A stretch of DNA of 43,756 nt from Alphaproteobacteria bacterium (lineage in GTDB: Bacteria > Pseudomonadota > Alphaproteobacteria > Rs-D84): the NCBI GenBank assembly GCA_017528045.1, contig JAFXPG010000001.1:1-43756 (forward strand), written 5' to 3'. The position numbers and the translations under genes were made by a program. Shown here in pieces: positions 5,906 to 28,479 of the stretch (positions are counted from its first letter, which is position 1; every line of letters begins with the position of its first letter). The notes beneath the pieces were generated by a model. That model was not told the origin of the DNA. It saw nothing but the letters and a program-made list of their open reading frames with translations, and made no database searches.

Positions 5906-5982
5906 GCACCCATAGCACAACTGGATAATGCATTGCCCTCCGAAGGCAAAGATTGCAGGTTCGACTCCCGCTGGGTGCACCA
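5906..5982 (+). tRNA. tRNA-Arg(CCG)
   Basis: Acceptor GCACCCA (5906-5912) with TGGGTGC (5972-5978), discriminator A5979 and encoded CCA 5980-5982. Anticodon stem TTGCC/GGCAA around loop CTCCGAA gives anticodon CCG, reading CGG. The T-stem GCAGG/CCCGC has one A-C mismatch, which is unusual. The 17 bases from 5966 to the CCA recur at 6123-6139 at the end of element A, so this 3' end may have been replaced by, or exchanged with, that of the element. Confidence 0.93.
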
Positions 5983-5989
5983 TAAAATC

Positions 5990-6017
5990 AAACCATCGTT
6001 TTGATGGTTTTATTTTA
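5990..6017 (+). terminator. Terminator of tRNA-Arg
   Basis: AAACCATC - GTTTT - GATGGTTT followed by TATTTTAT, 8 nt after the CCA. Confidence 0.75.
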
Positions 6018-6021
6018 TCTG

Positions 6022-6139
6022 GTATTCCCCGGGAGGAGAACCTAAGTTCGACAACAAGTAGATTTTGGAAGTGTTAACGATCCAAAATCGTCACGGTTGA
6101 CCCGCAGGTTTAACCGAGGAAGTCCCGCTGGGTGCACCA
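6022..6139 (+). ncRNA. Element A: tRNA-end-associated structured RNA (candidate)
   Basis: A non-coding segment homologous to element B at 28326-28441. Predicted helices are: closing helix P1 between 6022-6034 and the tRNA-derived tail 6123-6135 (core CGGGA/TCCCG, with two central mismatches); a GAAC/GTTC hairpin (from 6038); a perfect 8-bp hairpin GATTTTGG (6061-6068)/CCAAAATC (6082-6089); and a GGT/ACC mini-hairpin near 6107-6115. Bases shared with element B include GAGAACC, GTTCGACAA, AGTAGATTT, AAATCGT, CCCGCAGG and CCGAGG. The RNA would end in a single-stranded ACCA like a tRNA. No promoter is seen of its own, so expression would depend on read-through of the tRNA terminator. No reading frame is present. 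I know of no matching RNA family; existence as an RNA is inferred from co-variation. Confidence 0.65.
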
Positions 6140-6145
6140 AAATAA

Positions 6146-6170
6146 AAACCGCCAAATTGGCGGTTTATTT
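6146..6170. terminator. Bidirectional terminator between element A and the membrane protein gene
   Basis: AAACCGCCAA - A - TTGGCGGTTT with A- and T-rich flanks on both sides. It can serve element A on the plus strand and the gene 6172-6984 on the minus strand. Confidence 0.75.
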
Positions 6171-6171
6171 A

Positions 6172-6984
6172 TTATTTTGTATTTTGTTCTTTTATAACAA
6201 AAGTCGCCGGAACATTACCACGATAAACATCTGTTATTACACGTACCAATTCTGGATTATCTATCAACCAAGATTCGACTATTGTCATAGCTTGTTGCAA
6301 AGCCTTGTCACGAATTTTCAAATCGCCTATTTCGCCCTTGTACATTTTATTGTATTTGTGTTCTGAAATAGAATTTGCAATCTGCCACAATTTACGTGTA
6401 TCTTTTTCAGGCATATTGGAAATCAACAAAGTGTATATAACACGTGCCAATTCTGGATTGCATTGTTTCAACACTTCTTCGTTTAATGATGGATAGATTT
6501 TTTTTATTTCCACAAACAAACGAACAGACAAACGTTTATATAAATTATCTACTGCGACCTCTTGATTTGTTTGTTTGAATGAACCAAGAAATAAACTGTT
6601 TAACAGCATAGCGGATAAAACAAACAACAAAACAGAAGCAGCATCTACAAGGTTCATCGCAATTTTTTGATTTTTTGTTGTTGCACCCTTGTGCTTGAAT
6701 AAAGAATCTGAAAACAAACCATAATATACACTACTTAACATTGTGGTCAACAACACTGCGGAAACATAATCTTTGACCTTGAAGTTTTTAACAAATTCTA
6801 ATACAGGTGTTTTATATCTTTCTTCGGCGTTATTTTTTGCAGGAACAAACTTTTCATTATTCAATAAATCTGTAATAAAATCCTTACGCACAGGATTATC
6901 ATAATCAGATGTATGATTTGGATATATCAAATCATTTTCCTTGCTGAATTTATTTATCAATCTTTTTTCTTTTGTAGTATACAT
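6172..6984 (-). CDS. Membrane protein of unknown function, two TM segments
   Basis: 270 residues. The start at 6984 is chosen because AAGGAATG precedes it and because a perfect TTGACA promoter lies just upstream; an earlier in-frame Met at 7026 would sit on the promoter. After a charged N-terminal region of about 80 residues come two hydrophobic segments (VSAVLLTTMLSSVYYGLF and AASVLLFVLSAMLLNSLFLG). A mostly helical soluble domain of about 130 residues follows. I recognise no family. The protein at 35298 has a similar plan (two membrane helices then a helical domain), but clear sequence similarity is not visible. Confidence 0.7.
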   Translation of the reverse strand: MYTTKEKRLINKFSKENDLIYPNHTSDYDNPVRKDFITDLLNNEKFVPAKNNAEERYKTPVLEFVKNFKVKDYVSAVLLTTMLSSVYYGLFSDSLFKHKGATTKNQKIAMNLVDAASVLLFVLSAMLLNSLFLGSFKQTNQEVAVDNLYKRLSVRLFVEIKKIYPSLNEEVLKQCNPELARVIYTLLISNMPEKDTRKLWQIANSISEHKYNKMYKGEIGDLKIRDKALQQAMTIVESWLIDNPELVRVITDVYRGNVPATFVIKEQNTK

Positions 6985-23072: not shown

Positions 23073-23103
23073 TTAACCTTTGCCACCATTATAACTTAAA
23101 AAC

Positions 23104-23132
23104 TTGCAATTTCCAGTACGAATATTTATAAT
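23104..23132 (+). promoter_or_regulatory. Promoter of ssrA
   Basis: TTGCAA (23104-23109), 17-nt spacer and a perfect TATAAT (23127-23132). The start would be near 23139. Confidence 0.7.
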
Positions 23133-23138
23133 ATTTAG

Positions 23139-23455
23139 TGCTGTGATAACAGTGATGATTCTGAACACGTTGCTGAATAATCGTTTTGGACTGGGGGGCG
23201 GTACCCCACAGCTCCACCACTTTATTTACGGGGCTGACATAGTTTCGACAGGCGAAGTAAAGGCAAATCGTTTGAATCCGGGTTGTTCCGTTAAAAACAA
23301 ATAAAAAAATGAATGGCGAAACAATCGCTGCGAACGACAACGTTCGCTTTGCAATGGCTGCTTAATATAGCATAGAAATACGTTGGCAATTGTTGATGTA
23401 TTTCATTTAGCTTTTGCGGGGTTTGTCGGGTACCTGGCACCAGAAACCCGATATT
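23139..23455 (+). ncRNA. ssrA: Circularly permuted two-piece tmRNA
   Basis: The acceptor piece comes first. It ends in GGAC, a T-arm TGGGG-GGCGGTA-CCCCA, acceptor strand CAGCTCC (23209-23215) and ACCA (23216-23219). Ten bases later the coding piece begins with GGGGCTG (23230-23236), which pairs with CAGCTCC, followed by the tmRNA D-loop motif TTTCGACAGG. The tag frame at 23330-23365 reads ANDNVRFAMAA then TAA, possibly with one more Ala before it. This is the alphaproteobacterial arrangement: RNase processing removes the short intervening loop to give two paired RNAs. tmRNA with SmpB rescues stalled ribosomes and tags the product for proteolysis. Outer ends are approximate; a CGGGT/ACCCG hairpin at 23429-23452 lies near the 3' end. 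Confidence 0.93.
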
Positions 23456-23492
23456 TAGATAAAATAATGATATAAAATAAAAAGGAAAAGAA

Positions 23493-28211: not shown

Positions 28212-28288
28212 GGGTTAATAGCTCAGTTGGTTAGAGCGGAGCGCTCATAACGCTTTGGTCGTGGGTTCGAGTCCTACTTAACCCACCA
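28212..28288 (+). tRNA. tRNA with anticodon CAU (elongator Met or Ile2)
   Basis: Acceptor GGGTTAA (28212-28218)/TTAACCC (28278-28284), A discriminator 28285, encoded CCA. Anticodon stem GAGCG/CGCTT around CTCATAA gives CAU. It is not the initiator type (first pair is G-C and the anticodon stem lacks GGG/CCC). Elongator Met and the lysidine-modified Ile2 tRNA cannot be separated with certainty from sequence by eye. The 56 bp from 28271 (T-loop) through its terminator are exactly repeated at 28424. Confidence 0.92.
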
Positions 28289-28326
28289 CGAATAAAAAAC
28301 CGTCCTTGTGACGGCTTTTTTATTTG
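28271..28326 (+). repeat. 56-bp direct repeat, copy 1 (tRNA 3' end plus terminator)
   Basis: Runs from the T-loop of the CAU tRNA through CCA and the terminator (CCGTC-CTTGT-GACGG, T-run). It is identical to 28424-28479, 153 bp away. The perfect identity suggests recent duplication or gene conversion. Confidence 0.95.
28300..28325 (+). terminator. Terminator of the CAU tRNA
   Basis: CCGTC - CTTGT - GACGG, then CTTTTTT. An identical hairpin ends element B (28453-28478). Confidence 0.8.
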
Positions 28327-28441
28327 TGTAAGCAGGACGAGAACCCGGTTCGACAAGCAGTAGATTTCACAAACAAAGTGCAGTGAAATCGTTACGATTG
28401 CCCCGCAGGCTTTTGCCGAGGGTGTCCTACTTAACCCACCA
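28326..28441 (+). ncRNA. Element B: tRNA-end-associated structured RNA (candidate)
   Basis: Homologue of element A. The 97 bases unique to this copy (28327-28423) sit between two copies of the tRNA 3' end. Predicted helices are: P1 between TAAGCAGGAC (28329-28338) and the tRNA-derived GTCCTACTTA (28424-28433), one mismatch; GAAC/GTTC hairpin near 28341-28351; a perfect 8-bp hairpin GATTTCAC (28363-28370)/GTGAAATC (28383-28390); and GGC-TTTT-GCC near 28408-28417. Each helix has different bases from element A but keeps pairing. The RNA would end in ACCA and then the duplicated terminator. No reading frame and no own promoter are seen. Function unknown. Confidence 0.65.
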
Positions 28442-28479
28442 CGAATAAAAAACCGTCCTTGTGACGGCTTTTTTATTTG
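28424..28479 (+). repeat. 56-bp direct repeat, copy 2
   Basis: Exact second copy of 28271-28326, carrying the tRNA T-stem 3' strand, acceptor 3' strand, CCA and terminator without the rest of a tRNA. Confidence 0.95.

Follow-up and report, generated by a model that had tools for sequence, protein, structure and literature searches.

Mobile DNA classically inserts at the 3' ends of tRNA genes, and among the closest described systems are the tRNA-targeted integrative elements, the genomic islands and IMEX, which use the tRNA 3' end, show a direct repeat and leave the tRNA intact. The mobile elements of tRNA 3' ends that we know of bring an integrase and one fixed tail. The cassettes described here make the same use of the tRNA, but they measure only ~155 bp, carry neither genes nor an integrase, have an additional inverted arm, and belong to one core family that occurs with 19 anticodon types, each time with the tail of the tRNA concerned. 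REP/BIME-RAYT repeats and MITEs are likewise short, non-coding, multi-copy, intergenic and hairpin-rich, with a GTAG motif before the hairpin. Unlike these, the cassettes have tRNA-specific inverted and direct tails, are co-directional with tRNA genes, show a strand-specific covariation of the RNA type, and come without a RAYT. Integron attC cassettes also form tandem units flanked by imperfect palindromes that are able to fold, whereas the cassettes carry no genes and their frame consists of tRNA sequence. Finally, tmRNA, viral tRNA-like structures and recombinant tRNA scaffolds share with them a possible CCA-ended minihelix in which an RNA replaces the loop, yet no tRNA or tmRNA model matches the cassettes. 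The Rickettsia palindromic elements are comparable in being short palindromic repeats of alphaproteobacteria. They often lie inside protein genes, and we know of no tRNA-tail frame around them.

The window, by which we mean the whole 43,756-nt stretch of alphaproteobacterial DNA that was analysed, contains two such cassettes, both on the + strand. The first, element A, lies behind the gene for tRNA-Arg(ccg) at 5906..5982, identified by ARAGORN and the Rfam tRNA model. This gene is followed by a proximal terminator (5983..6019), which arrived with the element, judging from its sequence and its absence at the empty site of genome G001 (locus L227), and by the 5' arm (6020..6042), an imperfect inverted copy of the tRNA T-arm and tail, assigned by its coordinates and a family-wide own-tRNA permutation test. 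The core (6045..6122) opens with (A)GTTCGA and extends as far as the tail copy, contains hairpin P3 (6061-6089) and, in a CGCAG..CGAG module, P4 (6103-6118), and was assigned by coordinates, covariation and matches to both covariance models used below, R1 and R2. It is followed by a direct copy of the tRNA-Arg 3' end from T-loop to CCA (6123..6139), and by a distal terminator (6145..6170), which is the ancestral one, since it stands directly behind the tRNA at the empty site of G001. The original prediction had a complete tRNA-Arg followed by an exact 17-bp copy of its 3' end with CCA and a different second terminator, and this is what we found: TCCCGCTGGGTGCACCA occurs on the + strand of the window at 5966-5982 and 6123-6139, with no other exact occurrence, and the two terminators of element A differ in sequence. 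Two exact 17-mers would not be expected by chance at a distance of 157 bp. Among the reading frames that end within the element, none exceeds 49 aa; an 89-aa frame with a TTG start begins within it at 6097 and ends beyond it at 6366. The predicted pairing of arm and tail, with a free ACCA, stood in part: the arm tracks its own tRNA, but in the lowest-energy RNA fold of element A the ACCA is paired with the TGGT of the 5' arm (6020-6023). Elsewhere in the window, at 23100-23456, there is a permuted (two-piece) tmRNA gene of the alphaproteobacterial kind.

A homologous element had been noticed behind another tRNA near 28.3 kb, and this element B is indeed a homologue of element A. It is located behind tRNA-Met(cat) (28212..28288) and consists of a proximal terminator (28289..28326), a 5' arm (28327..28345), a core (28347..28424, with P3 at 28363-28390 and the P4 module at 28404-28420), a direct copy of the tRNA-Met 3' end (28425..28441) and a distal terminator (28442..28479). 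The two terminators are exact repeats, and together with the tail they form a 55-bp exact repeat at 28272-28326 and 28425-28479. In the remainder of this 0.89 Mb genome (16 contigs), more copies were found by DNA search behind tRNA-Lys, tRNA-Pro and others, and the covariance model R1, built on six own-genome copies, gave 11 matches at E<1e-4 and 13 at E<=10. When its 40 distinct tRNA genes were surveyed against shuffled controls, 12 had a direct tail copy within 450 nt at z>=5, in tRNA-Glu(ttc) and a second tRNA-Met it was chiefly the inverted arm that stood out (z 10.0 and 6.1), and the remaining 26 stayed below a z of 3. The same genome contains a prophage-like island of ~15 kb (C4:117400-134718, locus L269) between tRNA-Ser(tga) and an orphan element D (L003/L059), the tail of which is that of tRNA-Ser(tga). 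The island carries a 542-aa gene that looks, by reading, like a large serine recombinase (L269, 12572-14200), and it has probably split tRNA-Ser(tga) from element D.

The anatomy of the family follows the order tRNA, terminator, 5' arm, GGTTCGA, core, ANTCC...CCA, terminator, with the boundaries of the core located at the T-loop (GGTTCGA^core^ANTCC). Read in reverse complement, the 5' arm approximates the T-arm and the acceptor 3' strand of the host tRNA, and the direct tail copy starts in the T-loop and ends at CCA. Where the T-loop is unusual, as in a tRNA-Val (GGTTTGA) and a tRNA-Met (GGTCCGA), the GGTTCGA of the element is altered in the same way. The match to the own tRNA was measured on 94 copies that were distinct by core and tail and had a tRNA within 130 nt, comprising 39 tails and 19 anticodon types. 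For 81 of these 94 tails the own tRNA was the best or equal fit, and 47 were an exact 17-mer of it. The complementarity between arm and own tRNA summed to 738 over the 94 copies, whereas 1000 permutations averaged 563 (sd 12) and never exceeded 602. The edges of the tail were analysed in the 66 of the 94 copies with an ungapped tail (13/17 or better), and the identity between tRNA and element was 0.94-1.00 across the last 14 nt up to CCA and 0.56 at the next base. The sequence after CCA was near identical in 17 of these 66 copies and different in the remainder. A plain target-site duplication fits the 17 copies with near-identical terminators, and was rejected for element A, because its proximal terminator does not resemble the ancestral one. 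A type II insert (see below) often interrupts the tails with a poor fit, and no frame without a core was seen by eye among the rows listed in the frame survey.

Orientation and placement were scored on 145 copies, retained from the 93 and 65 matches of the models. The 13 left out comprise five of the 93 that were cut, partial or weak (L129, L171, L124 and two in L143), and, of the 65, seven places duplicated under another locus id and one at a contig end. These 145 copies are not independent, because some genomes and contigs are duplicates of one genome. Co-directional placement within 400 nt behind a tRNA was found for 116 of them, one stood inverted behind a tRNA, and 28 had no tRNA in reach. 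Of the 29 copies that lack a tRNA on their own strand within 400 nt, 20 still have a tail that fits some tRNA tail at >=15 of 17 positions, a count made without a shuffled control and on loci many of which end before a tRNA could appear. Two other repeats were observed at tRNA ends. The sequence TCCGYYT.. stands directly 3' of the CCA of a tRNA or element tail in L063, L122, L149, L222 and L234, and is a further repeat at tRNA ends in several genomes. Copies of the tRNA-Gly(tcc) tail lie ~100 nt downstream of the gene in L102, L109, L118 and L136 with no intervening terminator; they may represent a degenerate tRNA or a further type of core.

The core was predicted to be a structured RNA, and it covaries well beyond elements A and B. 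In an alignment of 88 distinct copies, 92.3% of the pairs in the 19-pair core structure were standard. The covariation score was 0.419 compared to 0.131 after shuffling, a value that none of 500 shuffles reached, and it dropped to 0.034-0.067 when the partners were slid; the model to which the alignment had been fitted contains 17 of the 19 pairs, and kinship among the copies inflates such scores. A structure-free pair scan of the same alignment gave eight strong pairs, all of them nested, including two new ones that close the CGCAG/CGAG module. Hairpin P3 was counted in 100 distinct hairpins over seven pairs, restricted to hairpins fitting the search pattern and leaving aside the first G-C pair, which the pattern fixes: 670 of the 700 pairs were Watson-Crick, 24 were G-U, one was A-C and five were others. 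It follows from this wobble bias, 24 G-U against one A-C, that the strand that folds is the tRNA-sense strand. The arm and tail behave differently. Of the 870 aligned pairs in 66 copies, 641 were Watson-Crick, with 35 G-U, 35 A-C and 159 other mismatches. Once base content was corrected for, there was a slight preference for substitutions that retain G-U pairing (C>T 13.5% versus G>A 7.4%, p=0.033; A>G versus T>C, p=0.14). The arm therefore follows each tRNA, but its maintenance as an RNA helix is weak, if there is any. The proposed resemblance to an acceptor/T-stem minihelix finds half support: the 5' arm tracks each tRNA, but the helix is loosely kept.

A covariance-model search of related genomes, as proposed originally, gave R1 matches in 107 of the 116 genomes of the genus, at 1-19 per genome, many of them behind tRNAs and ending in the 3' end of the tRNA concerned, and in two of 77 genomes outside the genus. 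Two of the outcomes named beforehand as refuting the prediction, a lack of further copies in relatives and a lack of covariation beyond elements A and B, are thereby contradicted. Eleven genomes were searched again with R2, a covariance model of 93 copies. The match in G150, related at class level, was lost, G116, which belongs to the same order and another family, retained four matches, and of the nine genus genomes without an R1 match, two gave weak matches only (E 0.056 and 0.448). An exact pattern scan of viral contigs, which would miss divergent copies, and a distant blastn against plasmids and phages were both without a match. Rfam scans at gathering and loose thresholds returned no credible family on the element, and no description of such elements was found in the titles and abstract beginnings returned by searches of the open literature. 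To this extent, the view that the family had not been described before still holds.

The same frame also houses other cores. Type II is characterized by GGYCAGAGC..GCATGRCC followed by a long imperfect hairpin that ends in TATCRAGG, and it is found alone behind tRNA-Gln, -Arg and -Glu, or after a type I core within the tail. Among 53 distinct type II stretches, 17 follow a tRNA of the same strand at no more than 300 nt and five others at no more than 600 nt, 15 have no tRNA in reach, and 16 lie within 300 nt of a tRNA on the opposite strand; we take the latter for reverse readings of a near-palindrome. The type III core (GAAAGGGGCCC..GGGAATTACA), the type IV core (TTCGACCCGC...) and a further element behind tRNA-Ala all end in the tail of their own tRNA. 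The pattern-based typing of cores was too strict, and most of the 26 rows classed as 'other' are type I by reading. In G116, P3-like cores stand in reverse orientation behind tRNA-Arg and tRNA-Met but keep their place between arm and tail, and P3-like core repeats are also found in intergenic regions with no tRNA in the fetched locus (L275, L280, L286, L287 and L288). In view of the types II-IV and the tRNA-Ala element sharing one frame, and of the inverted and tRNA-less cores in G116, frame and core look separable. Three further arrangements were observed. In the genome of the window, an inverted type I core lies within a type III-like element behind tRNA-Leu(caa) (C7:40701-40806, L098/L264). 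At L137 4963-6300, a 265-aa gene that reads as methyltransferase-like, with an inverted repeat on its flanks, stands between two type I elements at one tRNA-Gln. A second palindromic repeat, TTCGAAAGTT...AACTTTCGAA-like, occurs near several elements (L137 6345-6408; L065, L156 and L176).

Mobility was assessed at 30 fetched tRNA-Arg(ccg) loci, read by eye over 260 nt. Five carried a type I element, two a type II element, 22 nothing, and one was cut. Filled and empty sites with both flanks in common are given by L215/L227 and L223/L226, and the pair L224/L225 has the downstream flank and the tRNA in common. Block offsets gave net inserts of 157 bp for element A and 155 bp for L223, so what is present or absent is a unit of ~155 bp, and the terminator of the empty site in G001 is the distal terminator of element A. 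Cores with a likeness of 0.90-0.92 were found behind different tRNAs (Ser/Arg, Pro/Arg and Arg/Pro). In the Ser/Arg pair this likeness begins at GGTTCGAC and ends at GGGAATCC; the arm, the terminator and the tail are different. Tandem units of 171 bp exist as well. Both the filled and empty sites and the likeness of cores from different tRNAs speak for mobility, in line with the mobile-element reading of the original prediction, and losses could figure among the filled/empty pairs. The core likeness behind different tRNAs was 0.632 within genomes and 0.613 between genomes, and cores with a likeness of 0.95 and above, the highest seen, sit at the same tRNA wherever this is known, so that much of the present distribution may stem from ancient inheritance or from transfer at one and the same tRNA, and less from recent jumps.

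Element A is thus best read as one copy of a short, protein-free cassette family that adjoins tRNA genes. We estimate at roughly 0.7 the probability that these are mobile cassettes of structured RNA with a frame of tRNA 3' ends; the two readings of the original prediction, a structured RNA and a mobile element, are compatible, and both are indicated. The 3' end of the host tRNA frames each cassette, inverted in the 5' arm and direct, from T-loop to CCA, at the 3' end. The cassette may have spread by insertion at tRNA 3' ends while leaving the tRNA intact, its RNA would be produced by read-through of the tRNA terminator, and the 3' end of this RNA may correspond to the copied CCA.

The same observations could come from small RNAs that are useful to the host, are expressed behind tRNAs, are protected by a tRNA-like end and were copied by ordinary recombination. 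Such RNAs would explain the strong covariation with strand-specific wobble pairs, the co-direction with the tRNA, and a tail that is kept to CCA and no further. We nevertheless consider this unlikely given the patchy occurrence, with 22 of the 30 tRNA-Arg(ccg) loci empty and 0-19 copies per genome, the tandem copies, the interrupted tails and the several unrelated-looking cores in one frame. Equally improbable are mini integrative elements, in which a trans-acting recombinase of the tyrosine or serine class would integrate a small circle at the tRNA 3' end, with the tail as attachment site. The T-loop-to-CCA direct repeat, insertion at the tRNA end, the distal position of the ancestral terminator and the tandem units speak for this, but one core family would require a different attachment site for each tRNA, and by profile search the genome of the window has only two phage-integrase-family genes, which is presumably the number expected for XerC and XerD. 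Across the 116 genus genomes, profiles for reverse transcriptase, tyrosine integrase and Y1 gave no candidate for a mobilising enzyme, and an extra integrase was not consistently present. Reverse transcriptase (RVT_1) was detected in 38 of the 116, and is absent by profile search from G002, G015 and G083, which hold 15-19 copies; a retroelement with a tRNA primer site was rejected on this ground. Reverse transcription and a snap-back mechanism were considered as conceivable models for the inverted arm. Rfam covariance models for group I and group II introns, tRNA and tmRNA did not match the element.

Palindromic DNA repeats of the REP/RAYT or MITE kind that landed by chance in tRNA 3' hairpins are a far less probable source. 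The type I core does have GTAG just before P3 (AGTAG in most aligned cores, AGTAA in a subgroup), and P3-like cores in G116 are not confined to tRNAs and are found in both orientations, but the orientation bias of 116 to 1, the strand-specific wobble pairs within the genus and the tRNA-specific frame speak against such repeats. Moreover, the Y1 (RAYT) transposase was found in only two of the 116 genus genomes, with that of the window not among them, and in none of 13 further genomes including G116, and no core was found beside the two Y1 genes. Decayed tandem tRNA duplications, suggested by tails and sometimes terminators that are true copies, are refuted by a covarying core that is homologous behind unrelated tRNAs and has no Rfam tRNA match.

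The cassettes behave like a non-autonomous mobile repeat, yet they lack diagnostic features tested for the described classes: the RAYT transposase of REP/RAYT repeats, the integrase of integrase-bearing tRNA elements, the match to intron models, and the consistent reverse transcriptase of retroelements. A bolder and less probable reading would have them as a new class of mobile elements, with ends templated by host tRNAs in both orientations and with interchangeable structured RNAs where the T-loop would be; they would then be selfish RNAs maturing as tRNA mimics. In the gut bacteria of this group, with their reduced genomes of ~0.9 Mb, a gene-free structured-RNA cassette is present in up to 19 copies, each tailored to its neighbouring tRNA. 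With filled and empty sites in close relatives, it becomes possible to test by what route a unit of 155 bp regenerates ends specific to each tRNA, and if the RNA does mature to the copied CCA, the cassettes would be a natural tRNA-scaffold system and possibly a family of tRNA mimics.
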